IMG/VR virus record: IMGVR_UViG_3300036820_000064
Location: 1-26,258 of that record
Length of the DNA: 26,258 nt
DNA from: a virus
Strand: one strand, 5' to 3'
Shown: positions 3,501 to 21,585 of the stretch, in pieces
Layout of the letters: the number at the start of each line of letters is the position of its first letter
Position numbering within the stretch: position 1 is the first letter of the stretch
The notes under the pieces: model-generated
The model's database searches: none
What the model was told of the DNA's origin: nothing
Seen by the model: the letters and a program-made list of their open reading frames with translations, nothing else
Translations under genes and position numbers: made by a program

Positions 3501-4099
3501 CGCCGATCGCGCACCTTGTCAGCCGCGATCGTCGTCTCACGGTCCGCGCGCTGGAATATTTCATTGCCTGCCCCGCTCGCGGCACGCGCGAACCCGGGCT
3601 CCGGGACTGGGGCAACCGCAACGTCCTCCAGGCCGGGAAGGTCTCGCCGCGCCTCTCGTGGATCGAAGAAATTGGAGAGACTTCGATCGATGTACGAGAT
3701 GCCGGTCGGCTTAAAATTCTGGCCTTCCTTGAAGCCCGCGGCCCGCAATCCTTGGGCCACGGCCTCGTTTGCCGCCGCAAGCCCTGCCTGTGGAACCTTG
3801 ACGAATAGAGCCTCCAGCGCACGCGCCGCGACGCCAGCGGGACCAGGGACATCCTTGGTGTAAAGCGGTTGCTCAAGCGGCTCCTCGCCAGCCCGCCCTA
3901 CAGCTTCGATGCCCCCCATGACGCGCTTGCCCAATCCGGGACCGGCCGGCCGATCCAGCGTGAACCCCGGCGGGGGCGGCGGTGCCGCGCGCGCGGTTGG
4001 GGGTTGTTGCGCGTCTAATTTGAAACCGGGCGGGGGCGGCGGTGCCACGCCCGCCGGCTTATCGAGCGTGAACCCCGGCGGCGGGGGCGGAGCGTCCAT
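557..4099 (-). CDS. Very large phage polyvalent / internal virion-type protein (1180 aa)
   Basis: The N-terminus holds three copies of a PPPPPGF(T/K)LD motif (residues 4-13, 20-29, 40-49); a fourth sits at 336-348. Residues about 180-255 are charged and helical (many A, K, E, R). A segment around 400-450 (TYHFEAGAREFGRWAGQM, then PHLKAIW) resembles a pattern seen in many giant phage polyvalent proteins. The C-terminal 450 residues are helical with hydrophobic stretches such as LLVMGGMMFGVYAFANAAL, as in proteins injected with phage DNA. I see no protease, lytic transglycosylase or methylase motif. I found no cysteine in the whole chain. The ATG at 4099 lies three bases after the stop of the preceding gene. 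A role as an ejected internal virion protein is inferred from size, composition and position among virion genes; the exact function is unknown. Confidence 0.8.
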   Translation of the reverse strand: MDAPPPPPGFTLDKPAGVAPPPPPGFKLDAQQPPTARAAPPPPPGFTLDRPAGPGLGKRVMGGIEAVGRAGEEPLEQPLYTKDVPGPAGVAARALEALFVKVPQAGLAAANEAVAQGLRAAGFKEGQNFKPTGISYIDRSLSNFFDPREARRDLPGLEDVAVAPVPEPGFARAASGAGNEIFQRADRETTIAADKVRDRRQASVDEFKRFAADKAGDAKEAAKFAKIRQEHAMEKTAARERTAKTLAAAREQTTPRSWTQEELPTDIGIRVAARNIQLGRPPEGPYSPEDLADAGVDVNRLQGTLAAKSPVTHRETVKSAIERQRPRAAPLEAYSPPPPPPPPGFKLDRLVGQGSGVPPVTGYGARNKLVSSKAADAARAALKSSGRSLSDLLKDKSGAVDPEIFRHLVTLGTYHFEAGAREFGRWAGQMTRELGDPVKPHLKAIWSAVQTQKNKIGDERAPAKITGPQDVAANNAAIRSDTAVAPEQKPNAPGPMLDPPMSADETTRDFAKRIDDGLYRVRKNGTADKIEAKHFIESFPKAVTSTDALQGKVYREVEHRLIDPKATYSPKVKAFLDNPQVKRWRARETALAAKLVKRLGRNDADIPLIGEGYVHRVAEGKGHYLDRADPETGRQADPIMGQGRSLSKFASSMQARKFYVLEGPDGRRVFQKATPSDLNPKRGSDGKMYTPKLATTQEIEANTATRYHKNFLINTVDNVLRLERIDRNLDLADEIKATALDRDEYFPLNSQREVPRDYIKIDMPGVEGFWAPRLGHVLQDFQDKVQGDPLGMLTSINRFLTAALFWTPLPHIRNVAQHWIVGRGWDWINPVAYRRLMQTSTAAMKAVMTQDENYVRMLREGSGLMYGDVANQNFYKLMIEKMGNEQIRDPQTWGGIAKTFGFQSVKDMVRWEYRASSKMLWAVNDMFLLQRQMELMQKGMGPRKAIAAAEKDIPNYRIPSTVLGSRGIANLLKSPNYLMFGRYKFGQFNAIYSAFRDLIRGTNEERKEAAGKLLVMGGMMFGVYAFANAALRQITGNPQDRISLGGPFSILQSGYEMMTGERDWMSALSSMLTLAPSTEIAKEVTTDRDVYGRPIVNSQSGLLAKGVQAGEAALGHLGPGAIAEEAMKPRGVTRAVGQQFGITLAAPDARHGKNIGKKIERRQAAKRGVKDPLQRLLDVR
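3953..4090 (-). repeat. Triplicated PPPPPGF[TK]LD-coding repeat (fourth copy at 3056-3094)
   Basis: Three near-identical coding units of about 30 bases lie within the first 49 codons of the 1180-residue gene, separated by linkers of 6 and 10 residues. A fourth, with eight prolines, encodes residues 336-348. On the plus strand the units appear as gtgaaccccggcgggggcgg-type runs. The repeat looks like a short linear binding motif rather than a folded domain. Confidence 0.85.
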
Positions 4100-4102
4100 G
4101 CG

Positions 4103-5233
4103 TCATTGGCCCGCCGGAACGGGCTGCCATGCATTGCCGTCCCAGTAGATTCTCTTGCCGCCTGGACCCGTGAAGGTCTTCGTGCCGGCCGGAAGACCGC
4201 CCGCCGAGACCGGTTTTGCGGGTGTGGCGCCGCCGCCGCCAATCCCGGCCGCGATGCTATCGCTCTCCGAGTTGATCTTGTCGAGCTCGCCCTGGAGCTT
4301 GCTAAGTTGGGCGTCGGCGTCCACCGGATTCGCCGTTTGGATGTTATTCATCCGGTTGACGATCTGCTGCGCCCGTTGCGCGCGGACCTTAAGCTTCTCC
4401 GCCGTCTCGCGATCCTGCGTCGTGGTAGCGTGCTGTTGGGCCTCGAATGCCTGACGCTGTAGCTGCCGCGCATCCTCCCGGTTTTGTACCAGCGTGGTCC
4501 GATCCATCGACGCGTTGCGCCCTGCCGCCGCTCGATCCCCGGCCATACCCGAGATCGTGATGCGGGTGGCGTCATGGCTCGAGGCGATGATCTGGGCGAG
4601 GTTGCCCTTGAACTCCGCGATGTCGCGTTGGTTCTGCAGCCGGGACTCGTTCATCAACTGCTGCACTTGGAGTTTGTCGGCTTGGCTTGCGGCCTGGATC
4701 AGCGGCGCGATCTGCCTGACCTGCGCCTGCACCGCTTGGGCCAAGACAACGTTGCTGATTCCAGGGTTGGCCGCCTTAATGGTCTGGGCCATCTCGCGCA
4801 GCAGCCTTTGCGCGCCCTCCGCGTTCTGTTGCATACCTCCACCATTGGGCGCGCCGCTCGGCGACGGAGAGGCGCCGGGACCGGCCCCGCCTGGCGGTGC
4901 GTTCTGTGGTGGAGACGGAGGCGGTGCCATCGGCCCGCCACCGGCCGGTCCGGCGTTCGGCGAGCCGGGAATAGCGCCACCCTGGGCCGGTGGAAGTTGC
5001 TGGTTCGGGACACTCGGCGCGCCCGGCGGGGGCGGTTGAGGCCCCTGTTGCGGCAAACCCTGCGGACCTTGCGCGCCCCAGGTGGCGCCCATGGCGCCCT
5101 GAGCCGCCAACTCCTGCTCGTATTGCGCGATATTCTGCTTCGCCTCCTGAAGCTGAAGCCACTTGAGTTGGCTGTCGGGAAGCGCGCCACCGAAGCCGCT
5201 CCCGATCTGACCGATGGCGGCGCCGAAGGCCAT
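4103..5233 (-). CDS. Pro/Gly-rich coiled-coil virion-type protein (376 aa)
   Basis: Unrecognised by family. Residues 1-45 contain a Gly-rich helix (GAAIGQIGSGFGGALPDS) then a Gln/Glu-rich helix. Residues about 48-130 are a low-complexity Pro/Gly/Gln linker. Residues about 130-310 are helical and Gln/Arg/Ala-rich, with coiled-coil character and hardly any aromatic residues. The tail ends with TFTGPGGKRIYWDGNAWQPV, a WDGxxW motif that recalls short wall- or surface-associated modules (weak resemblance). The ATG at 5233 is chosen. A TTG at 5239 would give two more residues and a four-base overlap (TTGA) with the preceding gene; I cannot decide between them. Position between a Gln/Ala-rich protein and the 1180-residue protein suggests a set of ejection or internal head proteins, as in T7 or P22, but that is inference. 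Confidence 0.75.
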   Translation of the reverse strand: MAFGAAIGQIGSGFGGALPDSQLKWLQLQEAKQNIAQYEQELAAQGAMGATWGAQGPQGLPQQGPQPPPPGAPSVPNQQLPPAQGGAIPGSPNAGPAGGGPMAPPPSPPQNAPPGGAGPGASPSPSGAPNGGGMQQNAEGAQRLLREMAQTIKAANPGISNVVLAQAVQAQVRQIAPLIQAASQADKLQVQQLMNESRLQNQRDIAEFKGNLAQIIASSHDATRITISGMAGDRAAAGRNASMDRTTLVQNREDARQLQRQAFEAQQHATTTQDRETAEKLKVRAQRAQQIVNRMNNIQTANPVDADAQLSKLQGELDKINSESDSIAAGIGGGGATPAKPVSAGGLPAGTKTFTGPGGKRIYWDGNAWQPVPAGQ

Positions 5234-5235
5234 CG

Positions 5236-6276
5236 TCAATAGGCCGTGTAGGAGCCGCCGCCCGAGTAGCCGTAGCCACCCGCGTCGGCATTGGCATAGC
5301 CGCCCGTCGAGCTATAGGGCGACGACGACGAGAACAGGCTGTTGAGCGACGAGCCAAGGGCCGGGTTGGAGAGCGAGTTCGCGAGGCTGGTGCCGAGGAT
5401 TTGATTCTGCTGGAACGCCTGGTTTTGACCTTGCAGGGCCAGCCCGCTCGCCGACTGGCCGCGGCCGAGATACGACTCCAAGTCCTGCACCGTCTGCTGC
5501 GGCAGACCGAACACAGCCGAGGAGGCGTTGGTGAGATCGTTGAGGCCGCCGATGCCCTGCGTCGCCTGTCCGGTCGAGGTCGCGTAGGGCGAGCCGTAGC
5601 CCGAGACGAGCGAGCCTAGAGCGCCCGTGCCCAAGGTCGAGGCCGTCGAGTAGTCGAGGCCCGTTGCCTGGTTCAATCCCGTCGCGGTCTGCGTGGCGGT
5701 TTGCTGGCGCCCAAGCGCCGCGTTCTGCCAATTGATATTGAAATTGTTGTTGGCGTTGTTCGCGAGCGAAGCACCGTAGGGGGTGCCGCCCACGCCGTTC
5801 TGGGCATTGATCGCGTTGGCTTGGCTTGCCGCCTGGTTCTGTTGCTGCTGATAGAGCTGTTGTTGTGGATCGAAGCCCGCTTGCAGCGCCGCCGTCGCGT
5901 AGGGCTGCATCGAGGCACCTTGGCCGTAGATCGAGGAGGCGCCGCCAAGCTGCATCCCAGCGACAGCGGGGGTCGCGGCGGCGGCGGCATTGGCCCCGGT
6001 CTGCGCGAGACCCGCATAGGGATTGTCGGTGAGCTGCCCCGCCTGTTGCTGGTACTGCGGATAGAGCTGCTGCGGCAACCCTGTCCCGAAATTGTACATC
6101 TCGCTGGTGAGATTGGAGAGTTCGTTGCCGGCCTGCGGCTGGTTCGGTGGAATGTACACCTGGCCGGTCTGCGGCGACGAAGCGGCGCCGCCGCCGAAGA
6201 TTGAGTTGGCGGCACCCGCGACCGAGCCGAGCGCGCCGACGCCGCCGACGATGGCCGGGACGGTGAAGCTAGGCAT
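5236..6276 (-). CDS. Gly/Ala/Gln-rich putative DNA-ejection (internal virion) protein (346 aa)
   Basis: The N-terminus (residues 7-32) is a glycine-zipper-like hydrophobic stretch, VGGVGALGSVAGAANSIFGG, followed by a low-complexity chain rich in Gln, Ala, Asn, Gly and Ser with no cysteine. The middle (QQLYQQQQNQAASQANA and the following YGASLANNANNNF) resembles the Gln-rich helical segments of small internal virion proteins that podoviruses eject ahead of their DNA. The C-terminus is Ser/Gly/Tyr-rich. A GGAG six bases before the ATG at 6276 supports this start, and the gene overlaps the stop of the GNAT gene by eight bases. Function is inferred from composition and neighbourhood; no catalytic motif is present. 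Confidence 0.75.
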   Translation of the reverse strand: MPSFTVPAIVGGVGALGSVAGAANSIFGGGAASSPQTGQVYIPPNQPQAGNELSNLTSEMYNFGTGLPQQLYPQYQQQAGQLTDNPYAGLAQTGANAAAAATPAVAGMQLGGASSIYGQGASMQPYATAALQAGFDPQQQLYQQQQNQAASQANAINAQNGVGGTPYGASLANNANNNFNINWQNAALGRQQTATQTATGLNQATGLDYSTASTLGTGALGSLVSGYGSPYATSTGQATQGIGGLNDLTNASSAVFGLPQQTVQDLESYLGRGQSASGLALQGQNQAFQQNQILGTSLANSLSNPALGSSLNSLFSSSSPYSSTGGYANADAGGYGYSGGGSYTAY

Positions 6277-6751
6277 CCGTGTCTCCGATCCATAGCGTGT
6301 AGTTAACCTGACTCGGCACGGCGCCGCGGCGAGTGAAGAACTTGCCGATGTGCCGGCCGCGACCGATCAGCCGATGGTGCGGGTAGATGCACTTGACACT
6401 GGCGAGCTTCAACTCGGCAACCGATCGTTCGAACATGCGAACCGCCACCTTCGGGTATCCTGGCGACAAATACCACGCAGCCTGGTTTGCGACAACCAAT
6501 CCCTTACTTTCGAGATCGCCGCTGATCGTCCAGGTGTAGTAACCGATCAGTTTCCCAGCCTCGCGCGCGGTGATCGCCACCAGCAAATTCCGACACGAAT
6601 ACTGGTTGAGCGCCACGGCGTCAGGATTGAACTTGCGCTGCGGTGGGGCCTCGCTCTCGACCTCTTGCCAGTGCGATGCCGCCAGTGCCTCGCCCTCCGG
6701 CCACATGGAGCCGAACGGTTCACGGGCGACGACGACGCGCCTGCTAGCCAT
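6269..6751 (-). CDS. GNAT-like acyltransferase fold protein (160 aa)
   Basis: Length and pattern fit a single GNAT domain of the kind found in podovirus late operons. Strand LLVAITAREAGKLIGYYTW (about residues 55-73) reads as beta2-beta3. LVVANQAAWYLSPGYPKVAV (about 84-103) reads as beta4 plus the start of the acyl-CoA-binding helix, followed by FERSVAELKLASVKCIYPHH. The usual pyrophosphate loop Q/R-x-x-G-x-G/A is replaced by PGYPKVAVRM, so acetyl-CoA binding may be altered or lost. The gene overlaps both neighbours by eight bases (6744-6751 and 6269-6276). Whether the protein modifies a virion protein or host target cannot be told from sequence. Confidence 0.75.
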   Translation of the reverse strand: MASRRVVVAREPFGSMWPEGEALAASHWQEVESEAPPQRKFNPDAVALNQYSCRNLLVAITAREAGKLIGYYTWTISGDLESKGLVVANQAAWYLSPGYPKVAVRMFERSVAELKLASVKCIYPHHRLIGRGRHIGKFFTRRGAVPSQVNYTLWIGDTDA

Positions 6752-7301
6752 GGATCGCCTGCCGGACTTCCGCCTTCAGCCCTTCGATCCGGCGATGATT
6801 CATATGCAGCTTCTTGACGCGCGCGGCGAGGTCTAGCTGGATATTGGTCTGCGACATCGCCAGCCACCAGCCCCGGTCGAATACGATGCCGAGGCAGGTC
6901 TCGAACAGCCACGCGCACACCGCCTCGTTCTTCAATCCATCGTACCGGATCGTCATGATGCCGGTGCGCTCGGAACAATTGTCGAGATCGCGGGCGCGGG
7001 TCTGGATTTCCTTCAGCGGGATTTCGAGACCGAGCTTCTTGAGGCTGGCCTGCACCGGGCCCACCGAGCGTCGCACCACGATTACGCGAGCCTGGCGCGC
7101 CAGAAGCGGCCACGCGAACGCCGCCCCGGTCTCGACCGTGCCGCGCCTCTGCGTCAGCTTGGCCTCGAACTCGATAATCGAAGCGCAGTCTATCGCCAGA
7201 TCGTGGGTGCAAAATTCCTGGTTATAGGAGAGGAAGCGCGAGAGCCAGTAGGTCCGCGAGCGGGGTAGCGCCAGGATGACAAAGGGCTTCGGCGCCGTCA
7301 T
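6744..7301 (-). CDS. Short sulfotransferase-like P-loop protein (185 aa)
   Basis: Residues 7-24 (FVILALPRSRTYWLSRFL) match the 5'-phosphosulfate-binding loop of PAPS-dependent sulfotransferases (P-[RK]-S-x-T-x-x-L). Residues about 72-89 (VIVVRRSVGPVQASLKKL) match the second signature, where Arg and Ser bind the 3'-phosphate of PAPS. A histidine-bearing C-terminal helix follows. At 185 residues it is well below the usual 250-300 of this family, so substrate-binding elements are reduced. The gene starts with an ATGA overlap after the zinc-ribbon gene and overlaps the GNAT gene by eight bases. Sulfation or a related nucleotide-dependent role is inferred; the substrate is unknown. Confidence 0.75.
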   Translation of the reverse strand: MTAPKPFVILALPRSRTYWLSRFLSYNQEFCTHDLAIDCASIIEFEAKLTQRRGTVETGAAFAWPLLARQARVIVVRRSVGPVQASLKKLGLEIPLKEIQTRARDLDNCSERTGIMTIRYDGLKNEAVCAWLFETCLGIVFDRGWWLAMSQTNIQLDLAARVKKLHMNHRRIEGLKAEVRQAIHG

Positions 7302-7917: not shown

Positions 7918-8319
7918 CTAAGGCTGGCTCGTATATTCAAACGTGTCACCGCTTGTCCCCGTGATCCAGACCGGACCGTTCGTCAAACCGCCACCGACGT
8001 TACCGCACGAGATGTATCCGCCACCGACATTGAGGCTGCCGGAGGCAGAGGCAGGAGAAAGCGGAAATCCGACATAGGACCCATTGGCCGGCGCCGTTGG
8101 GCCGAAGAACACCGACATGGCGTGAGTGCCGGTATTCTGAATGCGGCAGTCCGCGCGCGAGGTGACGCTTCTCGCCGCCGGGAACACAAGCTGCCAATCG
8201 CCGGTGGTCGTAATCGTGCCGGTGCCCTCGCTCGCCGCCCGACCGAACGGCGGGGCCTGGGCCAGCGCGGCGACGACGGTGAGGCATAGCGCCGCCGCCA
8301 GGATAACGCGCCGCAGCAT
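7918..8319 (-). CDS. Small beta-sandwich virion-type protein with Sec signal peptide (133 aa)
   Basis: The ATG at 8319 overlaps the stop of the preceding gene by one base (TGATG) and is preferred over a start 60 bases upstream inside that gene. Residues 1-20 (MLRRVILAAALCLTVVAALA) are a textbook signal peptide: two arginines, a hydrophobic core and an A-x-A cleavage site. The mature part (DWQLVFPAARSVTSRADCRI, then IQNTGTHAMSVFFG and GTSGDTFEY) follows the pattern of small phage beta-sandwich proteins, where residue stretches such as R-x-x-x-x-I-x-N-T-G and G-x-T-F recur. The mature chain has two cysteines (58 and 105), possibly a disulfide. Export plus a virion-type fold is unusual. The role is unknown. 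Confidence 0.7.
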   Translation of the reverse strand: MLRRVILAAALCLTVVAALAQAPPFGRAASEGTGTITTTGDWQLVFPAARSVTSRADCRIQNTGTHAMSVFFGPTAPANGSYVGFPLSPASASGSLNVGGGYISCGNVGGGLTNGPVWITGTSGDTFEYTSQP

Positions 8320-9560
8320 CAGTAGTTCGCCGACCACACCATCTGCCCCGCGCCGCTCGCCGTCGCCGCCAGCACGCAACCGTCCTTAGCCGTCATGCCG
8401 GTCGTAGTGAAGTTGATGCTCGCGGCATAGACCGAGTTCGCCACCAGCGTCGCCGAGAATGGCGTCGAGAGCGCCGTGAACGACTGCGACGCCGAGATAA
8501 GGCCAAATGTCGTCGCGCTGAGGGCGTTGGTGTAGGTCGGCTCCGCCCGCATCGTCACCGGGAACGGAATCGCCATCGTGCAGGTGGTGCTAGTCCCTTG
8601 CGCGGTGCCGCCCCCAGCCACGATCAGGCCCGCGTGCAGCGGCTCCTTGAGAACGTACATGTACCGCAGCGCGGTTTGGAGTTCCGTGCCGTAGGGCAGG
8701 TACGCGAAGTTCGAGGCGGTCGCGCCCTGCTCGCATTGGACGCCCGTGAAGCGGAAGCCGTCCGTCACACCGGCCGTGCCGCCCGTGGTCGGCGTCCAGC
8801 CGAGACCGAAAGCCGCCTCGGTCGCGGCCGCCGGCATGTTGAAGGTGACGCTGTAGCGCGCCCAGGTCGAGGTGATGGTCCAGGTTCCGGTTTGCGTCGC
8901 GATCCCGGCGAAGGCCGGACTGACGGCCGGCGAGGCGGTGAAGGATTGCAACCCCTCGTCGTTGCCCGTGCCCGTGAACAGGTACGGTGTCAAGGTCGTG
9001 GTCTCGGCCAGCATGTTCGCCAGCCCCTCGACATAGGCGCTGCACGTCACGGCCTGGCCCTGGAGCGGCGTAATCCTGGTGGTCGGGATTTCCTGCATCA
9101 CGAGCTGCGGCTGCGCCAGCGCGCCGGAGGTGCGGTAGAACACCATCGCGGCGTTGAATACCGGCTGCGCCGGAAGGTTCGTGGCGATGACCTGGAGGGT
9201 GCCGGCGCCTGACGTGACGTTGACGTTGCAGCCCCAGCGATCGGCCGCATAGGCGGTCTGGATCGGAATGGTGGTGGTGCCGCAGGTCCGCGTGCCGGTG
9301 CCAAGCTGATCGACCTGCATCTGCCCGTTGTCGAGGATGTTGCGCGGATCGTTGAAAGTCGCCATCGATTGCGGCGTCACCAGCGCGTCGATCGCGCCGA
9401 TCAACTGATTGAGCGTCGCGATGCCCGGCGGCAGGTCGGCGGTCGGATTGGTCCCGGCGGGTCCGGTGAATTGCGGGATGTTTGCCGCGAAAGAAACTAC
9501 CGCGGTGGCGAGGATCGCGGCCAGAACGCCGCCGAAAACCCCCTTGAGAAATAGCTTCAT
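8319..9560 (-). CDS. Carbohydrate-binding-type phage adhesin with Sec signal peptide (413 aa)
   Basis: A GAGGAG seven bases before the ATG at 9560 fixes the start. Residues 1-26 (MKLFLKGVFGGVLAAILATA then VVSFAA) form a signal peptide. After a short linker, RNILDNGQMQV (73-83) and AYAADRWGC (103-111) match a recurring phage tail or adhesin pattern (N-x-L-x-N-G ... Y-x-x-D-R-W). Near residue 300, VQCEQGATASNFAYLPYG and ELQTALRYMYV match its usual end. These domains form jelly-roll, carbohydrate-binding-like folds on tail fibres. The mature chain has six cysteines, spaced as possible pairs. Probable role: binding of a surface glycan. It is unclear why a tail adhesin would carry an export signal. 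Confidence 0.75.
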   Translation of the reverse strand: MKLFLKGVFGGVLAAILATAVVSFAANIPQFTGPAGTNPTADLPPGIATLNQLIGAIDALVTPQSMATFNDPRNILDNGQMQVDQLGTGTRTCGTTTIPIQTAYAADRWGCNVNVTSGAGTLQVIATNLPAQPVFNAAMVFYRTSGALAQPQLVMQEIPTTRITPLQGQAVTCSAYVEGLANMLAETTTLTPYLFTGTGNDEGLQSFTASPAVSPAFAGIATQTGTWTITSTWARYSVTFNMPAAATEAAFGLGWTPTTGGTAGVTDGFRFTGVQCEQGATASNFAYLPYGTELQTALRYMYVLKEPLHAGLIVAGGGTAQGTSTTCTMAIPFPVTMRAEPTYTNALSATTFGLISASQSFTALSTPFSATLVANSVYAASINFTTTGMTAKDGCVLAATASGAGQMVWSANY

Positions 9561-9593
9561 TCGTCGTCTCCTCGGCGACTGGCTGTTGCGCGG

Positions 9594-9621
9594 ATAATAA
9601 CACAAACGCTCGTGTAGTCTA
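9594..9621 (-). promoter_or_regulatory. Possible sigma70-type promoter before the exported adhesin gene
   Basis: In the 102-base gap between two fibre genes the minus strand reads TAGACT (9621-9616), 16 bases, then TATTAT (9599-9594), about 34 bases before the ATG at 9560. The -10 box is good and the -35 box weak. It could let the adhesin and downstream genes be expressed apart from the rest of the operon. Evidence is by pattern only. Confidence 0.3.
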
Positions 9622-9662
9622 GAGAGACTCTTTTTCCGCCTCCACGGTGGAAAATTGCATCG

Positions 9663-11009
9663 TCAGTATCCGATCGCGATGTATTGAAGCGTCGTCGACG
9701 CGCTGCTCACGATGGCGCCCACGATGGCCGTGGCGCTCAGACTGGCCACATAGGCGATCTGACCACCGGTGCTGCTCACGAGCCCAGCGAGAGCCTGCGT
9801 GGTGAACGCCTTGTCAAAGGTCGCGGAACCGCTGGTGCTCGATGTGATCGTGATCTGACCCCAATTAATAATCAGCCCCCCCGGTAGCGTGATGTGTCCG
9901 GAGTTGGCGAGATTGAGCGAGAGCGCGATGGCATTAAGCAGGCCGTTAGCCGTGGTCATCGCGGTGCTGCCGACCGTCTGGCCGATATTGACCGTCCAGG
10001 TGTTTCCCGAACCGCCCGTGATGACGGTGCCAGGAACGACACCGGAACCGTAGAGATACTGGCCGATGGCGATACTGGCCGATGGAGTTTGAGTGCCCGA
10101 TGTAAGCGTGAACCCAGAGATCGAGCCGGTAAAGCTTGAGATCGTAGTGAGGCCGACCCCGGTACCGGCGCCGAGAAAGGCGAGCGCGCCAAGGCCGAGC
10201 GCCGCCTGTCGGTTCGCGTTGCTGGCATAGGTATAGGAGATGATTTGCCAATTGCCCGACCCAAGACAGAGCGCAATGGCGGCGTCGCCCGCGCTCGTGA
10301 CGATATTGGCGTTGCCCGGCAGAATCAGCGACGTGGCGTTATAGGTCAACGTGAGCGAGGCCGCGAAGGTCAAGAACCGAATGTCACCCGCGATGCCCGT
10401 GTACGGGCCGGGACTGGCGGCGTCCAATCCGGCAATCGCGGTCGTGCCGGTGATTTCGATTGCCTGGTTCGGCAGCGCGGCGACGATCGTCTGCGTGGCG
10501 CTGGCGAGGGAGCCGATGGCGCCGTTGCGATCGATGGAACTTAGAAGCTCGTACTGCGTCCCATCATATTGGAGAATGTATTGGAACCCAGGCCGCCAAT
10601 CGCCGGGCTGAAGCGCAACCAAGCCGCCGGCCGTGCGCTTGTAGACGGCAACGTAGCCGGTGCCGTTGAGGTTGAGCGTCAACGCTCCGGTGTTAGTGAG
10701 TCCCGCCCCGACCGAGATCGCGATGACGTTGCCGGTGTTGAGCGCGAAGGCCCCTGGGCTGAGGGACGATACCTGTTGCGCGTTGGCGCTGCCGACGGTC
10801 GGGCCGCCGACATAAACGGACGAGCCGCCCAGCGCCGGCGGAATCGGCGTCGTCAGGCCCGCGAGCTGTGTGATGTTGGTGTTGACCGGAGCGTTGGCGG
10901 CGTTAGCGTTTACCCCGCTCACAATGTCGTTGAAATTCGCCATCACCTGATTGGCGTCGGCGGTCTGGCCGTTCGTCAGGTCAAAAGGCAGGCTCGGAAC
11001 GATCGGCAT
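9663..11009 (-). CDS. Phage tail fibre / receptor-binding protein with gp53-like C-terminal domain (448 aa)
   Basis: A GAGGAG five bases before the ATG at 11009 supports the start. Residues 1-60 (LTNGQTADANQVMANFNDIV) are a common N-terminal segment of phage fibres. Residues about 130-160 contain QPGDWRPGFQYILQYDGTQY, another fibre-type motif. Residues about 291-350 hold a beta-module with the pattern G-x-x-L-x-G-S-G-V-x-P-G-T-x-I that also occurs in three other proteins here. Residues 373-448 (LPGGLIINWGQITI, ATFDKAFTTQALAGLV, LQYIAIGY) match the gp53-like C-terminal tip domain of tail fibres. Only one cysteine is present and there is no signal peptide, in contrast to the neighbouring fibres. 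Confidence 0.85.
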   Translation of the reverse strand: MPIVPSLPFDLTNGQTADANQVMANFNDIVSGVNANAANAPVNTNITQLAGLTTPIPPALGGSSVYVGGPTVGSANAQQVSSLSPGAFALNTGNVIAISVGAGLTNTGALTLNLNGTGYVAVYKRTAGGLVALQPGDWRPGFQYILQYDGTQYELLSSIDRNGAIGSLASATQTIVAALPNQAIEITGTTAIAGLDAASPGPYTGIAGDIRFLTFAASLTLTYNATSLILPGNANIVTSAGDAAIALCLGSGNWQIISYTYASNANRQAALGLGALAFLGAGTGVGLTTISSFTGSISGFTLTSGTQTPSASIAIGQYLYGSGVVPGTVITGGSGNTWTVNIGQTVGSTAMTTANGLLNAIALSLNLANSGHITLPGGLIINWGQITITSSTSGSATFDKAFTTQALAGLVSSTGGQIAYVASLSATAIVGAIVSSASTTLQYIAIGY

Positions 11010-11034
11010 GGCAACTCCTCACATCGCTAAAATT

Positions 11035-11208
11035 TCACGATTGGCGATCCGCGCCGATGAACCGTTCGACGATAAGCGAGGCCCTCAACCTCAATCGATC
11101 GGTTGCCTCGCGCGCTTCTTGAAACTCGGGAACGTCCTCACGCGGCGGGATACCGCCACCGATGCCGGTGACGCGGCGGAACAGGTCGATGATTCCGCAC
11201 AAGGTCAT
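11035..11208 (-). CDS. Small protein (57 aa), unrecognised
   Basis: The ATG at 11208 overlaps the stop of the preceding gene as ATGA, which picks this start from a longer open frame reaching back to 11640. The product (MTLCGIIDLFRRVTGIGGGI...) has an amphipathic first half and a charged helical second half (EFQEAREATDRLRLRASLIV). It ends 25 bases before the next gene's start, which has its own ribosome site. It sits with a membrane protein and a periplasmic protein, so a link to lysis is possible, but nothing in the sequence shows it. Confidence 0.6.
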   Translation of the reverse strand: MTLCGIIDLFRRVTGIGGGIPPREDVPEFQEAREATDRLRLRASLIVERFIGADRQS

Positions 11209-11486
11209 CGGCGGCCGCGCCCGAGCAACAGCCCCTCGATGCGCGCCTGCCCGGTCGATAACGCTTGGAGACCGTCTGACAACGCCATCGTTGCCTCGGT
11301 CCTTCTCCGCGCGTCGGCGAGCGCCGTCTCTCGATCCTTGCGGGCGAAAATTTCCTTCCGTGCGTTCTCGCGCGCCAACCACCAAATCGCCAACGCGGCT
11401 AACGCGATAAGCAACACCGCCAAGCCGCCAGCCGCGCCCCATCGGTCCGTGACGTGCTCGGCGTATTTTTCGGCGGCGTCCCACAC
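11205..11486 (-). CDS. Single-span membrane protein with coiled coil (93 aa); holin- or spanin-like candidate
   Basis: The start is a GTG at 11486, three bases after the preceding stop. Residues 18-41 (GAAGGLAVLLIALAALAIWW) form one clear transmembrane helix. Residues 42-85 are charged and helical with heptad character (RKEIFARKDRETALADARRR). The layout, one span near the N-terminus followed by a coiled coil, fits an inner-membrane spanin or a small class III holin, though it is shorter than usual for Rz. The neighbour upstream is an exported coiled-coil protein. No endolysin is visible nearby, so a lysis role is inference. Confidence 0.65.
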   Translation of the reverse strand: MWDAAEKYAEHVTDRWGAAGGLAVLLIALAALAIWWLARENARKEIFARKDRETALADARRRTEATMALSDGLQALSTGQARIEGLLLGRGRR

Positions 11487-11489
11487 GGC

Positions 11490-11750
11490 TTATTTCTTCG
11501 GCGGTGTCGGCTTCGGCGTCTTCGCCGCGGTCAACTCTTTCGTCAGCGCCGCGATCTGTCGTTGCGCGTCCTGCAACCTCAATTCCAGCGCGCGTAACGA
11601 CGTGCCCATGCTCACGATTGCTTGCTGTGCCGCTTGGCATTCAAGTTCTTGTGCCTGCTTCAACGGCGACGATGGTTGCGGACTCGGATCGGCCGCCCAG
11701 GCCACAAGCGGGAATACCAGCGCGAAGACAACAAAGCGAAGCGATTTCAT
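11490..11750 (-). CDS. Exported small coiled-coil protein with signal peptide (86 aa)
   Basis: The ATG at 11750 overlaps the stop of the large fibre gene as ATGA. Residues 1-19 (MKSLRFVVFALVFPLVAWA) are a clear Sec signal peptide with cleavage at AWA|AD. The mature part is a Pro/Ser linker, then a coiled coil (ELECQAAQQAIVSMGTSLRA and LELRLQDAQRQIAALTKELT) and a Lys/Pro-rich tail. There is no lipobox cysteine at the cleavage site, so it is not a typical outer-membrane spanin lipoprotein. It could pair with the membrane protein just downstream through their coiled coils. Function unknown. Confidence 0.7.
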   Translation of the reverse strand: MKSLRFVVFALVFPLVAWAADPSPQPSSPLKQAQELECQAAQQAIVSMGTSLRALELRLQDAQRQIAALTKELTAAKTPKPTPPKK

Positions 11751-14700
11751 CTTTCTCTCTCCCGTTTCAAAAGCTCTTGGCAAAAATTATCGTTCACGGC
11801 CGCGCGACAAGCAGAGACGATATCGGCGAATCGTTGACTTTGCTCGGCATGTTCTTCTTGTAGTGCCTTGCCGATGCGGGGCACGAAGCCCATGAGGTCA
11901 ACCGTGTTAGGCAGACCGCTTTCGTCATAACCAACCAGCCTCTTTAGGTCGGAATATTTACTTGTCAGAACACTCAATCCTTCGGCGGTCGGGCCGCCGT
12001 AAACTTTTGCGGGATCGTAACCAAGGCCGGGCTTATACCGGAACGTCTTGAAATCGACCGCGTCAATCTCGGCGAGCATTGGCCCCATGTCGGCGAGATC
12101 GGTTTTGTATCGCTCGCTGGATGTGCCGAGGCAGACTCCCAAAGTCCCGGTCCCGGTTACAACCGCGCCGCCTGAAGCGACATGGCAAAGCGTCGCGTCC
12201 GTGTCGCCCGTGTCGGCGCCGATGCCCGTTAAGTTCAACGCCCCCGCAACGGTAGAAGCGCCTGTTCCACTTATTGTAATTACCGCCGTGCCGTTAGTAC
12301 CTAGAACCAAAGCGGACGACGATCCATTTGTGACGATAACACCCGGGGTATTAAAAAACTCAAGCACTCCCAGCCCGGCATTGGCCTGACCGGCGGTGAT
12401 TCCGGTATCCGCGCTCGCATGCTGAATAATCGCCGTGGAAATAAATGATGAATTATAGTTGTCCGTCAGTCCCACTAAAACTACACTGCCGGTGGTTGTG
12501 CTATTCTGCGACCAAATTGTCCCGTTAGTTCCAAAGCCCGTGGTTATTCCGGCGGGGCTAGTCGTCGCTCCTTTGCTAAATATCGATCCGGTCATAGTGC
12601 AACTGCCGGCAAGCGCGCAGTCGCTCGACGCATGACCTGTGAGTGCGCCGATGAATGTCGTGGCCGTGACGGCATGCGTGCTCGGATTTTCGGAGAAGCC
12701 CGCATCCGTAACCACGGCTTGGCTTCCAGTCGTATCGGCAGGCGCTATTACTGGATAGAACGATGCGTTGGTCGTGCTTGCTGTCGTGGCGATCTTGACA
12801 TCGGTCGTCGCGTTGCCGACGCTCGTTATGTCGCCGGTCAGATTGGCGTTCGTCGTAACGGCGCCCGCCGTTAGTCCCGACGCCGTTCCCGTCAAGTTCG
12901 TCGCCGTACCGGACGATGGTGTCCCTAGCGCGCCCCCATTTACGACAATAGCCCCAGCGCTACCAACATTATCCCCGAGCGCGGTTGCTACACCCGTGCC
13001 GAGGCTCGATAGAGCCAAGTCAAGAGAAGCATGCCCCGTGAGCGCGGCAGTGATCGTTCCAGCGGAAAAGTTGCCGCTGGCATCACGGTTAACCAGCGTT
13101 GAGGCGGTATCGGCAGAAGTATAGGCGACGGTGCTTCCCACGCCCGCCGCACTCAACCCCGTTAAAACGGTTCCGGCGCTCGATGTGCCGCCATAGGCGG
13201 TCGGCACCGCGCCATTTCCCGCCGATATCATGAGATCGCCCGAGGTTGGATACTGTACGGCCCAAGAACCGGCGGTTGCCTTGATTGTTACATTATCCGG
13301 CTCGCCGCACCCGATCTGCGCCGATGTCGCTACCGTGCATTTTACCGTGACGGGCCCCGTCCACGGCCCCGACCCCGTGCCGGTGATCGTAAGCGTGCTA
13401 TCGCCCGAATAGTTTCCAACCGATGCGACCGAATTTGCGGCGGTCGCAACGGCTACGCCGTTGACATAATATCCTCCAGACGAATTGAGCGTTCCCGCTC
13501 CTTCGGCGCCGCCTGTCGGCGCGCCGATCTGTAAGCCACCTGTCGCGAGTTTCATTACATTGGTATAGCTAGAGCCGTCTGGATTTATGTCGAGATCGAT
13601 CGTCCTGTTAGTCGATGTGTCCATACCGATTTGAAATCCAAGGCCAGTGCCGGTGTCATTGGCCTGGTAGTACGGACCGTTGCCGGAAAGCGTCGTTGTC
13701 CAAATCGATCTGGAAACTAGATTATGGACTGCGCCGTTTTCGTACCACGTCAAGCCTGCCAGTCCAGGGCCGACGGGCACCGACGTTCCGTTGCCACCGT
13801 CCAATATGGCCGTGTCGTTGTAGGTACCTGTATCGTTATAAATCGCCAGCGCCGACGAGTAATGAGCGATGGAGATATCGTTGGTCGGGGACCCTTCGCC
13901 GCTTGTGAAATTAACGCCGTAAAGCCCAGAACAACCGGTAATACAATAAGGCCGAAACGTTCCAACAGTTTCATTGTCAGCACCGGCCATCTGCCAGCCA
14001 TTATTACTGTCGCTAAGGGTCGAAATATTGTCCCATGTATTGAAGGATGGGTTACACGTACTCGTTGTTAGTTCCTCAATCGGAAACCCGAACGTGAGCA
14101 AATTGATGGCGGTAATCGCATTGAAAAAACCGCCTTGAACCCCACAATAGCCGCCAAGCGAATAAGCACCGCCATGAACGTACAACGACGCAACAAGTCC
14201 CTCATAAACAATTACATGGTCAAGTTCCGGCTGGTTGGTGCCCGATATATCGAGCGCGGAATTTGCCGAAGCCCCGGCCCACAACGCGAGATTTCGCAAA
14301 ATCGGATGCGATACGGCCGGATTTGAAGCGCCAGCGATAGGTTGTATTTGCAGCGGTCCCGTGCCGCCAGAGGCACCAAGCCACGCGAAGCCGCTGGTCG
14401 GGACCGCTGGACCGTTTTGCGGATCGTAATCCCAAAATTTTACTTGATTGCCGGCGATTTCTATTTCGGCGGTTACCAGTAATGTTGTCGCGACGGTGCT
14501 TACACAACTAGGCGGCACGAGAAGAGTACGAGAAAGGGGGCTAGCTTCGGCCCAGGCAATTGCCGCTTGATCGACTGTCGAGTCATCCGTACCGAAAGCA
14601 AATGGCACACCCGAAACGGCGGTCGACGATTGCAGGGCAAGCGTCACATGTTGAGGGTCGGTATAGGCGGAAATAATCGTTACTAACGCGGCGCCGCTCG

Positions 14701-15238
14701 TACCGGCCCCCGACACCATTACGGCCTTGCCGACACTCGCCAAAGAAAAAATCGCCATATTCGAGACCAGCGCGGTACTGTGGAGGGTCATGGTTCCACC
14801 CGCGTCGAAATTCGTATAGCCCGTCGCGACAACGCCGTCACATTTCGCACCAAAGTCCGTAACTGACATCGAGACGCGGCTGTCGATATCCGCCTGGTTC
14901 GGCGGCGGCGACACAGTAGAGCCGGTAGGATTTATCAATATCTTCGGATTCACGCTTCCGACCAGCGCGCCCGTGCCGTTCAGCGCGTTGGCCAAGGCTG
15001 CGAAGACGCTGGTGCTGGTATCCTCGATCAGCACCGCCGGTGGCAAGAGGGCGGCAAGAGAGATCGCGAATTGCAGCGCCGTGATCTGACGAGTATTGCC
15101 CTGCCAGATTGGAATCTGCTCGGGGCCCAACAATGGCAGATTAACTGGCGGAAGCGCCGGAATGGGGATCGGCGTCACGTCCGCCATCGCCGGAACCGGC
15201 AGCAATAGCGCCAAGAGGATAAGGATGCGTCCGGTCAT
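11747..15238 (-). CDS. Large tail fibre/spike with signal peptide, pectate-lyase-like start and S74-type intramolecular chaperone (1163 aa)
   Basis: The ATG at 15238 overlaps the preceding stop as ATGA; an upstream extension of 75 codons lies inside that gene and is rejected. Residues 1-19 (MTGRILILLALLLPVPAMA) are a signal peptide. LLGPEQIPIWQGNTRQIT (36-53) is a fibre attachment-type segment. VTDFGAKCDG (126-135) and TDDSTVDQAAIAWA (217-230) are the split signature of pectate-lyase-3-like beta-helix spikes, with an 80-residue beta-module inserted between. The middle is beta-rich with fibre phrases such as NRDASGNFSAGTITAALTGH. The C-terminal 123 residues begin SERYKTDLADM and match the S74 self-cleaving chaperone that trimerises spikes; cleavage is expected between Ser1040 and Ser1041. 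Fourteen cysteines are present. Base composition is less GC-rich than in the flanking genes. Likely role: host-surface binding, possibly polysaccharide cleavage. Confidence 0.88.
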   Translation of the reverse strand: MTGRILILLALLLPVPAMADVTPIPIPALPPVNLPLLGPEQIPIWQGNTRQITALQFAISLAALLPPAVLIEDTSTSVFAALANALNGTGALVGSVNPKILINPTGSTVSPPPNQADIDSRVSMSVTDFGAKCDGVVATGYTNFDAGGTMTLHSTALVSNMAIFSLASVGKAVMVSGAGTSGAALVTIISAYTDPQHVTLALQSSTAVSGVPFAFGTDDSTVDQAAIAWAEASPLSRTLLVPPSCVSTVATTLLVTAEIEIAGNQVKFWDYDPQNGPAVPTSGFAWLGASGGTGPLQIQPIAGASNPAVSHPILRNLALWAGASANSALDISGTNQPELDHVIVYEGLVASLYVHGGAYSLGGYCGVQGGFFNAITAINLLTFGFPIEELTTSTCNPSFNTWDNISTLSDSNNGWQMAGADNETVGTFRPYCITGCSGLYGVNFTSGEGSPTNDISIAHYSSALAIYNDTGTYNDTAILDGGNGTSVPVGPGLAGLTWYENGAVHNLVSRSIWTTTLSGNGPYYQANDTGTGLGFQIGMDTSTNRTIDLDINPDGSSYTNVMKLATGGLQIGAPTGGAEGAGTLNSSGGYYVNGVAVATAANSVASVGNYSGDSTLTITGTGSGPWTGPVTVKCTVATSAQIGCGEPDNVTIKATAGSWAVQYPTSGDLMISAGNGAVPTAYGGTSSAGTVLTGLSAAGVGSTVAYTSADTASTLVNRDASGNFSAGTITAALTGHASLDLALSSLGTGVATALGDNVGSAGAIVVNGGALGTPSSGTATNLTGTASGLTAGAVTTNANLTGDITSVGNATTDVKIATTASTTNASFYPVIAPADTTGSQAVVTDAGFSENPSTHAVTATTFIGALTGHASSDCALAGSCTMTGSIFSKGATTSPAGITTGFGTNGTIWSQNSTTTGSVVLVGLTDNYNSSFISTAIIQHASADTGITAGQANAGLGVLEFFNTPGVIVTNGSSSALVLGTNGTAVITISGTGASTVAGALNLTGIGADTGDTDATLCHVASGGAVVTGTGTLGVCLGTSSERYKTDLADMGPMLAEIDAVDFKTFRYKPGLGYDPAKVYGGPTAEGLSVLTSKYSDLKRLVGYDESGLPNTVDLMGFVPRIGKALQEEHAEQSQRFADIVSACRAAVNDNFCQELLKRERER

Positions 15239-17388
15239 TGAGCCGAGATCGCCTCGCCGACGCCACCCTCGATAACCGTGCCGCCGCCCTGTGTGACGCT
15301 CGGCGGCAAGAGGTAACCGAGGCGCCCGTAACGCATATACCAATTTCCGAGCGCCATGCCCGACGACGACGATCCTGAGATCGTTAGCGTCATTTGCTTG
15401 AACACGACAGGCCGATCCCAAAGAATTTGCGACTGCATGAAGTATCCAGCACCGCCTCCCCATATCCCGGTTCCCCAGAGCGTCGATCCCCAGAGCGCCA
15501 CCGATTGGGCGGCCCCCGAGAGCGTCGCCCTGTCCAGAATGTTGCCCTGCTCATCCATGGCGCTAATGAGGATAGTATTGTTGTTGGTGACGAGCGCCGC
15601 GAGACTCGTCTCGATCATACTATTCTGCGCCATCTCGCCCGTGTCGGGCAAAAGCGCGGTTTGACTGGTGAAGCTCAGCGCCACGCCGTTCTCGCTGTAG
15701 GTGTCGCTCAGCGTCGGAACCGGACTGCCCTGCCATAGCGCCGCGTCGATGCTCGCGGCGACGGCGATGAAATACTTGCCCGCATAGGGCTGGAGGAGCG
15801 CCGCCGGCAGGCTGTGCGGCCCCGACCAGGACTTGAGGGCCGTGTGATACCAGAACTCTTGCCGCGGCTGCCCGTTGGCGGCGCCGTTCTGAACCGAGAT
15901 GCGCAACGTGTCGTTATTATAGGCGGCGCACATCCTCGTCGGGTTGACGGCATTGAGGAACGGCTGCCACACCCCCGTGCCGTAGGCGCCGATCGGATCG
16001 CCGACCTGGGCGAAGAAGTTGATGACGCGCAGACCGTCGGCGGCAACGAAAGCCAAACCCTGCGTCGTCGGGCAGATCGTGTTCGCCGCGGAACAGCCGA
16101 CCCCAACGGCGATCTGGTTAAGCGAGAGGTTGGAGGTCGCGGCATCGCCGGTGATTTGCCACAGTTCGGACGCCTGAAACACGATGAGCGCCTGGATGAT
16201 GCCGCCCAACGTGGTGGCACCCAAGGGCAGACCGCCCAAAGCCGTGACCGCGACGCCATTGTTGAGGGTTAGCACCTGCACCTCGGAGAGATTGCTGACC
16301 TGAGTGGGGTTCTCGGTGTCCGAGAACACCACCGCGTTGCCGGTTGGGGTGTTGACCGCGAACCACGCCCGCGCGCTGAACTGCGCCACAGCGACGGGCA
16401 CGGCCGCGAGCGGCATGCCGTTGGTGTTGCCGCTACCCCAAAGGGGTGCCGCCGCGGTGCCGCCCGTCACGGTCAGCGCCACGTTCACAGCGCTCGCCGT
16501 CGCGGCCTGGCTGATGACGATCGCGGTGGCGCCGGAGAAATTGACGGCGCCCCCGGCGATGGATTGCGTCGCGGGCAACGTCATTACCACCGAACTGCCG
16601 CCGACATCGACGCTCTCGACCAGCGCGCCGACCGCGATGCCGGGACCGGCCATGGTGCAGCCCGGAACCACGTCCGTGAGCGAGCCAATGGCCGTGACAC
16701 TATAGGCGCCCGCCGCCGTCGTGCCGATCGTGTTGAGGTCGAGAGCCTCGGCATCGAGCGAGACGATGGTGGTGTCGGCCTGGATGCCGTTCCCGGCGAT
16801 AAGCATGCCGGGCTGCCACCCGTCTTCCAGCACGTCGGCGGAGAGGGCCGTTATCGAGGTCGTGCTGTTGAGCGTGCCGGTTTTGGTGTTGTCGCTAAAA
16901 CTTGAAATGTCGAGCCAGCCAAAGTAGGGCCCGCTGCCGCCGGGGAAACCCGGATGTGTCACCATGATGCGGCTGCCAACCACCGCCATCGTCGGCGGGG
17001 TCCAGTCGCCCAGCGTCGGCGGCGTCACCGGCAGCGAGGCAGCACCGCCCGGAATGGCGATCGGCAGATAAGTCTCGGTCGCGATATTGTACACAAAAGG
17101 CACGTCGTATCCGGTGTAAGCGCCGGACGTGGCCGCGATCATGCCATAGGCGAGGTTGCCAACCACCAGGAGCGCATTGATCTGGGCCGGACCGCCCGGC
17201 GCGTTCGGTCCGGTGAAACTGGTGACCTTCAATTGTGCCGAGCGTGAAACCACGATGCCGCGCGTCATCGGCGATGGCACGAGGTTGGCGAGCATCCCCA
17301 TGGCGCCGGGCGGTACGTTGGTGCCGTCCACGGCATCGCACACGCCGGAGCAGCGCCAGGTCAGGGGCTTGGAATTACGGAGCGGCAC
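15235..17388 (-). CDS. Podovirus-type tail hub/nozzle protein, beta-propeller-like (717 aa)
   Basis: The start is a GTG at 17388, three bases after the adaptor gene's stop. The N-terminal ANLVPSPMTRGIVVSRSA (34-51) and later DVPFVYNIATETYLPI (95-110) match a conserved family of phage tail proteins. Residues about 170-288 hold two copies of a beta-module (GWQPGMLIAGNGIQADTTIV and CTMAGPGIAVGALVESVDVG). From about residue 330 to 600 the chain resembles beta-propeller tail proteins such as P22 gp10 or T7 gp12: FQASELWQITGD, GLAFVAADGLRVINFF and EFWYHTALKSWSG repeat a W/F-rich blade pattern. It has six cysteines and no signal peptide. Gene order after the adaptor fits a tail hub or nozzle. The family assignment rests on pattern, not a search. 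Confidence 0.75.
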   Translation of the reverse strand: MPLRNSKPLTWRCSGVCDAVDGTNVPPGAMGMLANLVPSPMTRGIVVSRSAQLKVTSFTGPNAPGGPAQINALLVVGNLAYGMIAATSGAYTGYDVPFVYNIATETYLPIAIPGGAASLPVTPPTLGDWTPPTMAVVGSRIMVTHPGFPGGSGPYFGWLDISSFSDNTKTGTLNSTTSITALSADVLEDGWQPGMLIAGNGIQADTTIVSLDAEALDLNTIGTTAAGAYSVTAIGSLTDVVPGCTMAGPGIAVGALVESVDVGGSSVVMTLPATQSIAGGAVNFSGATAIVISQAATASAVNVALTVTGGTAAAPLWGSGNTNGMPLAAVPVAVAQFSARAWFAVNTPTGNAVVFSDTENPTQVSNLSEVQVLTLNNGVAVTALGGLPLGATTLGGIIQALIVFQASELWQITGDAATSNLSLNQIAVGVGCSAANTICPTTQGLAFVAADGLRVINFFAQVGDPIGAYGTGVWQPFLNAVNPTRMCAAYNNDTLRISVQNGAANGQPRQEFWYHTALKSWSGPHSLPAALLQPYAGKYFIAVAASIDAALWQGSPVPTLSDTYSENGVALSFTSQTALLPDTGEMAQNSMIETSLAALVTNNNTILISAMDEQGNILDRATLSGAAQSVALWGSTLWGTGIWGGGAGYFMQSQILWDRPVVFKQMTLTISGSSSSGMALGNWYMRYGRLGYLLPPSVTQGGGTVIEGGVGEAISAQ

Positions 17389-20103: not shown

Positions 20104-21543
20104 TTAGCCGAAGATGGCGCTGAAGGCGGAGGTGCACTCGATGCGCGCGGCAAACTGCGCGTTGAGAATGATGGTGGCGTAGAAGGCTTTCCAGCCGACT
20201 ATGCGCAACTGGTTCAGGACGTCGGCTTTATCGGCGTCTTTGAGGTAGGTGAACTTGACGTTGTCCAGCATCACCTGGCCGTAGGCGCCGCGCCCAAAGA
20301 GGAAGTTCGGATAGACCGTGATGCCGGTGCCGGGCGCCGCCGGCGGCGACTGCGCCACGCCGAGGCCGGTGACGATCGCCGTGGTGCCGGGCTGCAACTG
20401 CACCGCCTGGCCCTGCAAGGGTCCGACCGTGGGGCCGGCCGCCGAGAGGCCGAGCTGGCCGGGCGAGGTCGTGGCGCCGACATAGACGTTGTAGGTGAAA
20501 CCCGGATTGGCGGCCAAGGTCACCGAGATCGAGCCGTTCGGGCCGACGACATCGATGGCGTTCGAGACCGCGTAAATCTGCGACTCGTATTGGTTCTGCG
20601 TGTCGGACGCGGTGACCACGATGTAGTAGGTGCCGGTCGGGAGCGCGCCGGCCGTGCCGGGCGTCCCATTGACTTGGGCGTAGCCGGTGAACGTCGGTAC
20701 CATGTTGGAGGCGCACCAGCGCGTCCCGGCCCACTCGCCGATCTCGTAATTGTAAAGGCGGTTGAGGTCGCTATAGGTACGCGCGAGTACCACAGTCGCG
20801 TTCTGCGACCAGTCGGCGACGACGAGGGTGTGGCAGATGCCGGCATAGTGCGGCATCCCGCGCGGGTTGGCCGAGGCGCGAGCGCCGCCCGTCTCGACGG
20901 CAATCTTGGTGTCGGTCATCTCGTCGCCCATGAACCGGGGCGCGCCGATGGTTTGGAGGGCGCCCGAGGTGCGCAACACGGTGGTGGTGTCGAGCACGTC
21001 GCCCGCGAGGAGCGCGCCCCGCGAGCCGCGGCTGTTGACGTAATTGACCTGAGTGAGGCCCATCAGCGCGTTAAAGGTGTTGCGCTCCAAGGTTTCCGAG
21101 AGTTGCAAGCCGACCAACTCGATGGCCTTCTTGAACAGCGGATGCTTGGTTGTAAGTTCGGCGACATCGGTGATCGTAACCTTGTCGCCCCATTGCTGGG
21201 CGACGGCGCTGACCTGCTGGATGGTCATGGTCTCGCCGATGGGCGGCACGCCCTCCGAGAGCGGCGCCTGCGGCAGCGGGATACGATTGTAGCGGGTAGC
21301 GGTGTAGGTGTTGCCCATGCCCTTCGGGAGGGTGAGCGGGTCGCCGAACTGATACGCGACCAATTGGCGGCGGGCGAGGGGCAACGTCTCGTCCGCGATG
21401 TAGTTCTGCATGTCGGCGGCGAACTGGCCCGCCGTGTTGGTGGCAAAGGCCACGTTGGGCGAATGGTAGTCGCCGAACTCGTCATGGCGGGCACCGGGCC
21501 CGATTGGCCGGAAGCCGAAACTTTCCTGTCCGAACAAGTCCAT
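20104..21543 (-). CDS. Major capsid protein, N4-gp56 family, with Ig/Fn3-like insert (479 aa)
   Basis: Residues about 70-150 (LTLPKGMGNTYTATRYNRIP, APLSEGVPP, QQWGDKVTITDVAELTTKHP, ELVGLQLSETLERNT) closely follow the N4-gp56 major capsid family. The C-terminal KADVLNQLRIVGWKAFYATI and LNAQFAARIECTSAF complete it. Between them, residues about 285-405 form an extra beta-domain (GTYYIVVTASDTQNQYES, ISVTLAANPGFTYNVYVGAT) with the look of an Ig or fibronectin-III fold. The ATG at 21543 is preferred to a GTG at 21549, because GGAGG sits six bases before the ATG and would abut the GTG. That Shine-Dalgarno lies in a perfect hairpin. Forms the capsid shell on the scaffold encoded just before. Confidence 0.9.
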   Translation of the reverse strand: MDLFGQESFGFRPIGPGARHDEFGDYHSPNVAFATNTAGQFAADMQNYIADETLPLARRQLVAYQFGDPLTLPKGMGNTYTATRYNRIPLPQAPLSEGVPPIGETMTIQQVSAVAQQWGDKVTITDVAELTTKHPLFKKAIELVGLQLSETLERNTFNALMGLTQVNYVNSRGSRGALLAGDVLDTTTVLRTSGALQTIGAPRFMGDEMTDTKIAVETGGARASANPRGMPHYAGICHTLVVADWSQNATVVLARTYSDLNRLYNYEIGEWAGTRWCASNMVPTFTGYAQVNGTPGTAGALPTGTYYIVVTASDTQNQYESQIYAVSNAIDVVGPNGSISVTLAANPGFTYNVYVGATTSPGQLGLSAAGPTVGPLQGQAVQLQPGTTAIVTGLGVAQSPPAAPGTGITVYPNFLFGRGAYGQVMLDNVKFTYLKDADKADVLNQLRIVGWKAFYATIILNAQFAARIECTSAFSAIFG

Positions 21544-21548
21544 CGTCA

Positions 21549-21585
21549 CCCTCCGTTAGACGGAGGGCTTAATTTAGCTCTCCGT
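21549..21585 (-). promoter_or_regulatory. Hairpin holding the capsid gene's Shine-Dalgarno, with a competing upstream arm
   Basis: On the minus strand CCCTCCGT (21567-21560), loop CTA, then ACGGAGGG (21556-21549) form a perfect 8-bp stem whose 3' arm contains the GGAGG ribosome site of the capsid gene. A further copy ACGGAG (21585-21580) begins inside the scaffold stop codon and can pair with CTCCGT (21565-21560), the same bases that lock the ribosome site. The two stems exclude each other. No U-run follows, so this is not a standard terminator. Confidence 0.6.

Follow-up and report, generated by a model that had tools for sequence, protein, structure and literature searches.

Probable Sec export of disulfide-bonded fibres and adhesins in a group of uncultivated podophages

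The fibres and tailspikes of tailed phages are, to our knowledge, synthesised and folded in the cytoplasm and have no signal peptides, and the locus analysed here raises the question of whether some podophages export such proteins through the Sec pathway and whether the exported proteins reach the virion. The window, by which we mean the whole stretch of DNA analysed, is 26,258 bases long and makes up a complete IMG/VR virus record, whose minus strand encodes, in order, terminase, portal, scaffold, capsid, connector genes, tail hub, a fibre cassette, ejection-type proteins and a DarB-like protein. This order is similar to that of Bcep22-like podophages, e.g. BcepMigl; the window portal matched no record in the phage collection, so that by similarity the phage is not a Bcep22-like (Lessievirus) member. 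Between the fibres and the ejection proteins lie a sulfotransferase-like or hydrolase-like gene (6744-7301, phrog_10855) and a GNAT-like gene (6269-6751); in BcepMigl the corresponding place is taken by an acyltransferase gene and a PAPS reductase-like gene. A sequence-only reading of the window had proposed that four genes of the fibre region encode Sec precursors, and their coding sequences were recovered as given there (15238-11748, 11750-11490, 9560-8319 and 8319-7918, all on the minus strand). The features concerned are as follows.

20104..21549, minus strand: major capsid protein, which defined the phage group (52-75% identity, 19 contigs)
15235..17388, minus strand: tail hub/nozzle-type gene that immediately precedes the fibre cassette and lacks a signal peptide
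11748..15238, minus strand: P1, tailspike or fibre of 1163 aa; phrog_32881 (1.6e-14) and, under the Pfam cut-off, Peptidase_S74 (0.0053)
15182-15238: signal peptide of P1, 19 aa
11490..11750, minus strand: P2, predicted coiled coil of 86 aa; signal peptide of 19 aa at 11694-11750
11205..11486, minus strand: small protein with a GTG start, a coiled coil and a single transmembrane segment, as read from sequence only
9663..11009, minus strand: P5, fibre-like, no signal peptide; SLPFDLTNGQTADANQVMANFN, Gp53-like C-terminal domain
8319..9560, minus strand: P3, adhesin of 413 aa with a carbohydrate-binding-like fold; phrog_4492 tail fibre (8.1e-22)
9486-9560: signal peptide of P3, about 25 aa
7918..8319, minus strand: P4, 133 aa; signal peptide of 20 aa at 8260-8319

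Stop overlaps or ribosome sites give good support to all four starts: the ATG at 15238 shares bases with the stop codon of the preceding tail gene (ATGA), the start at 11750 overlaps the fibre stop (ATGA) and is preceded by GAGAGAAAG, the start at 9560 is preceded by GAGGAGACGACGA, and that at 8319 overlaps the preceding stop (TGATG). Signal peptides were recognised on all four products, in agreement with the sequence-only reading, with Sec scores of 12.5 (15238), 13.5 (11750), 12.6 (9560) and 13.5 (8319) on a scale on which MalE scores 11.9 and OmpA 12.7. That this score is rule-based and home-made is a point in favour of an artefact of wrong starts or chance hydrophobic N-termini; against this stand its calibration on E. 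coli K-12, in which, across two 49-kb regions, every Sec protein scored at least 9.6 and all 44 cytoplasmic proteins at most 7.5, with some inner-membrane proteins and lipoproteins also at 10-12, and three chance controls. None of 202 core structural genes scored at least 10, only 3 of 2452 non-gene ORFs scored at least 12, and no shuffled N-terminus among 5000 scored at least 12.5. Considered alongside cysteine parity and the conserved position of the signal peptide in many diverged homologues, both described below, these controls leave an artefact close to excluded, and start choice as its source is excluded by the stop overlaps and ribosome sites, the conserved signal peptides of homologues and the controls. 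The cleavage sites proposed at AMA|D, AWA|A and ALA|Q also rank best by Sec score; for the product starting at 9560 the score preferred ATA|V over the proposed SFA|A, but homologues cut before AN(I/V/L) support SFA|A. Tripartite signal peptides with a small-x-small site are found throughout the exported set.

The exported set lies close to the tail hub within the structural module, and the claim that three of its four products have fibre- or adhesin-type domains stands clearly for two of the four, those starting at 15238 and 9560; the product starting at 8319, a putative beta-sandwich, is without a homologue, a search of IMG/VR for P4 relatives having returned none. P1 combines a virion-anchor-like motif (LPLLGPEQIPIWQGNTRQIT), a tailspike pectin-lyase-type start and a C-terminal S74-like chaperone, for which the S74 match is weak. 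The predicted structure of P3 has a mean pLDDT of 53, with only the carbohydrate-binding-like region usable, and this low-confidence model is similar in fold to CBA120 TSP4 and to carbohydrate-binding modules. No outer-membrane beta-barrel family matched any of P1-P4. Among other exported members of the phage group, matches were obtained to tail-spike, tail-fibre, S74, BNR/Sortilin, GH130 and lectin families, most of those scanned giving no family match.

P2 is a candidate co-exported partner of the fibre, or else a lysis protein. A spanin-type lysis role would fit the small size, predicted export and coiled coil of P2 and the gene that comes next (11205-11486), whose transmembrane coiled-coil product possibly functions in lysis and lies outside the exported set; however, P2 has neither a lipobox nor a cysteine at +1 (AWA|ADP), and so does not qualify as an o-spanin, it gave no convincing family match, and its translation is coupled to that of the fibre. 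In another genome of the group (G008) a similar small gene with a signal peptide comes after the large fibre gene, and we regard the lysis role of P2 as unlikely, if a serious contender.

Conserved signal peptides in homologues, which the sequence-only reading had proposed as a check, are present in all five P3 relatives and in most P5-type members. The P3 relatives from IMG/VR (L004-L008) are 51-67% identical to it, four of their five signal peptides are distinct in sequence, and recognisable ribosome sites precede their starts. P5, a fibre-like product of the same cassette that the sequence-only reading had left out, has one cysteine and no signal peptide, whereas its homologues mostly have a signal peptide and a cysteine pair; in two of the P3-relative genomes, the homologue of this signal-peptide-free gene at 11009 has a signal peptide and extra cysteines. 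A search with the P5-type domain yielded 80 IMG/VR loci and 10 genome loci, giving 79 non-redundant members, of which 72 are signal-peptide forms (69 by score, 3 by eye) and seven have a Met directly before the domain and no signal peptide, in a count that allowed the start with the best signal-peptide score. A cysteine pair flanks the domain in 65 of the 72 signal-peptide forms versus none of the 7 others (Fisher p 1.2e-6), and in 62 of 69 versus 3 of 10 on a score-only split that excludes the three calls by eye (p 1e-4); when starts were chosen by ribosome site, 63 of 76 members had a signal peptide and the association with the cysteine pair was weaker, yet significant (p 0.0015). Twin forms in which the signal peptide stands directly before the same domain (L083, ...PAAA|QIVGTLPFQLQNGTTADATQVMADFNKIL, versus L084, MTTIIGTLPFQLQNGTTADATQVMADFNKIL) show an apparent gain or loss of the predicted signal peptide at precisely this point of a P5-type fibre. 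Across the family, the N-domain is conserved and the C-terminal part mosaic (median 0.61 versus 0.20), the usual pattern of receptor-binding proteins, and a signal-peptide-bearing P5-type protein also matches tail-fibre families. The P5-type domain was found in no isolated phage; a TKxxL-type domain matches enterobacterial phage proteins, and the one examined, from K1ind2, has no signal peptide.

From the P5-type loci we obtained an uncultivated podophage group of 19 contigs of 41-47 kb, with major capsid proteins 52-75% identical to that of the window, which were taken whole and whose genes were called without the signal-peptide score. In each of the 19 genomes 2-9 genes score at least 10; most of them lie in the portal-scaffold interval or just after the tail hub, a few elsewhere, and by this score exported fibre-type proteins are encoded by every member. 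In 17/19 genomes the P5-type gene comes immediately after the tail-hub gene, with a 4-base overlap in 11/19, and in most of them it is followed in turn by a gene with a P3-type N-terminus that also bears a signal peptide. All or nearly all recognisable fibre-like genes have signal peptides in four genomes (G001, G005, G008 and G017), so that, by elimination, their virions would otherwise be fibreless; others, G014 and G019 among them, have a few fibre-like candidates without one. Signal-peptide-plus and -minus fibre genes occur together in the window and in the genomes of L062/L098 and L016/L105, a mixture that could reflect two different functions. In a clade member from a bacterial bin (L110) the same position is occupied by two signal-peptide-free fibre genes, one a P5-type fibre with a Phage Tail Collar domain (Pfam Collar 4.6e-26) and the other a 1200-aa fibre that matches a tail-fibre family; their lack of signal peptides could be a host-linked loss. 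A search for the L110 fibre anchor in isolates gave no match, and the bin is labelled Elusimicrobia, binning being an unreliable host assignment. Beyond the group, the tail hub is closely followed by a signal-peptide-like gene in two distant phages whose capsid identity is about 27-28%, which suggests a wider range. A signal peptide is not universal on podophage fibres, those of BcepMigl and Lo5R7ANS being without one, and the siphophage-like 16-3 fibres have none either.

In two of the contigs the capsid match crosses in-frame stops (one TAG in G004; one TGA and one TAG in G003), for which recoding, a frameshift and assembly error are candidates. The capsid gene was found in none of the alphaproteobacterial genomes searched (397 and 385), a search that had no positive control.

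Exported proteins of Gram-negative bacteria favour an even number of cysteines (PMC7678975). Among signal-peptide proteins of at least 150 aa, mature cysteine counts were even in 64 and odd in 8 (p 6e-12); the even:odd ratio was 49:7 after dereplication at 50% identity and 47:6 without the P5 family, compared with 130:163 in other proteins, and cysteine content was 1.45% in the signal-peptide proteins versus 0.65% in same-strand proteins without signal peptides. In the window, P1 has 14 cysteines, all in the mature part, P3 has 6, and P4 has two, both in the mature part. Several ejection-type proteins of the window have no cysteine, those at 557-6276 (1180, 378 and 346 aa) having zero, as do their homologues across the group. 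Cysteine parity implies that the body of the signal-peptide proteins crosses the membrane, which argues against a rival in which the signal peptides stay uncleaved, as hydrophobic N-terminal tethers located at the membrane or acting there during DNA ejection. Their strong hydrophobic cores would suit such tethers, but the small-x-small sites are kept while the hydrophobic parts have diverged, and removal of the signal peptide gives nearly the same N-terminus as that of the signal-peptide-free forms; we consider the tether quite improbable. The fibres and adhesins are thus, on these sequence statistics, very probably exported via Sec and disulfide-bonded.

Whether the exported proteins join virions is less firmly answered. 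A P5-type domain with signal peptide and cysteines also occurs in Reyranella, Rhizobium, Mesorhizobium and other alphaproteobacterial genomes, beside RHS/YD-repeat genes; a reading of these cellular matches as prophages was dropped on account of these neighbours. The loci share the domain, the signal peptide and the cysteines with the phage group, and differ from it in being chromosomal, with no phage structural genes adjoining. Exported tail-fibre-like proteins, some in tandem, lie on alphaproteobacterial chromosomes at eight such loci (L108, L109, L111-L114, L116 and L117), next to a small YD-repeat protein and a very large RHS-type protein, with Pfam-confirmed RHS repeats only in L108, in what looks like an undescribed surface or toxin-type system. 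As there is no virion there, possession of the domain is not proof of virion docking. Within the phages, one genome (G005, L151:11324-11995) encodes between portal and scaffold an outer-membrane beta-barrel protein with a signal peptide (OMP_b-brl 2.4e-15), so that not every exported product of this region is a fibre; similar N-termini occur in G001, G003 and G010, and the resemblance of the G005 N-terminus to alphaproteobacterial Omp25/31-type proteins may be a weak host hint. Tail-region proteins with Tat-like N-termini and no family match are encoded at L145:13335-14201 (G003, SRRGFVSGIACVAAPALLIPKIVRAS) and L137:16451-17200 (G006, PRRRLVFGAATTAAYAALSKDAGA).

The exported proteins might then never join virions but, in the manner of the phage-encoded envelope protein Lom, coat the infected cell or be released, and serve as decoys, superinfection blockers, adhesins or soluble enzymes that degrade polysaccharides. 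The RHS-locus proteins, the beta-barrel and Tat-like exported proteins of the same phage region, and the genomes that hold both kinds of fibre gene keep these non-virion roles, taken jointly, in play as a reading that we nevertheless judge unlikely. Against it, several genomes export nearly every fibre-like gene and would be left with no virion fibre, the P5-type gene overlaps the tail hub and pairs a conserved N-part with a mosaic C-part, and a signal-peptide-free P5-type counterpart has a tail-collar domain. Among the possibilities raised by the sequence-only reading, namely assembly outside the inner membrane, a decoy function and self-coating of the host, the evidence favours assembly outside.

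In the assembly model, receptor-binding fibres and adhesins of the podophage group would be made as Sec precursors that cross the inner membrane, are cleaved by signal peptidase I and fold with disulfide bonds in the periplasm, steps that the sequence statistics strongly support. We infer that mature trimers would remain in the periplasm until a holin opens the inner membrane at lysis, and would then dock on tails through the N-terminal domains used by signal-peptide-less fibres; the grounds for docking are fibre identity, gene position, elimination and the signal-peptide-free counterparts. The endolysin in one genome of the group is of GH108 type and has no signal peptide, implying that a holin opens the inner membrane, and we propose that this opening lets particles and periplasmic fibres meet. 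Probable benefits are that cysteine-rich adhesins can fold oxidatively and that the cytoplasm is kept free of sugar-binding or sugar-cutting domains. The whole chain, from Sec export through virion docking of receptor-binding fibres, appears to us somewhat probable, and completion of virions in two compartments, with cytoplasmic heads and tail hubs joined at lysis by periplasm-oxidised fibres, an evenly balanced proposition.

Compared with known tailed-phage fibres (P22-type tailspike, T4-type collar, Bcep22-like), the group shares pectin-lyase/S74, collar and carbohydrate-binding domains, the conserved N-part and mosaic C-part, the position after the tail hub and the Bcep22-like gene order, and differs in its Sec signals and paired cysteines. 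The pIII/pVIII proteins of filamentous phages are likewise virion components whose signal peptides are cleaved and which enter the particle outside the cytoplasm, but these phages are unrelated and assemble by extrusion at the membrane, with no lysis. SAR endolysins and spanins are also late phage proteins that use Sec, and differ by their lysis function. Lambda Lom/Bor-type envelope proteins are similarly phage-encoded and Sec-exported, but each is a small outer-membrane beta-barrel or lipoprotein, neither a fibre or tailspike nor a whole fibre repertoire. Lom is encoded among tail genes, a position that PMC12309495 also gives. The earlier statement that no described system is known to export tail adhesins agrees with our search of the open-access literature, extended to few subscription papers, which gave no Sec-exported tail fibre; in these sources, phage signal peptides appeared only for lysis proteins, for Lom or in mentions of methods.

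Tailed-phage fibres are taken to be folded and assembled in the cytoplasm, and a near-whole exported repertoire departs from that view. If this group does export nearly its whole fibre repertoire, an oxidising compartment would be added to virion assembly, the cysteine richness of these receptor-binding proteins would be explained, and infectivity would be tied to host Sec and Dsb functions. Export would also alter the annotation and production of metagenomic receptor-binding proteins, with regard to the mature N-terminus and periplasmic expression. If the exported proteins instead act apart from the virion, they would constitute a large unrecognised class of phage-encoded surface proteins.
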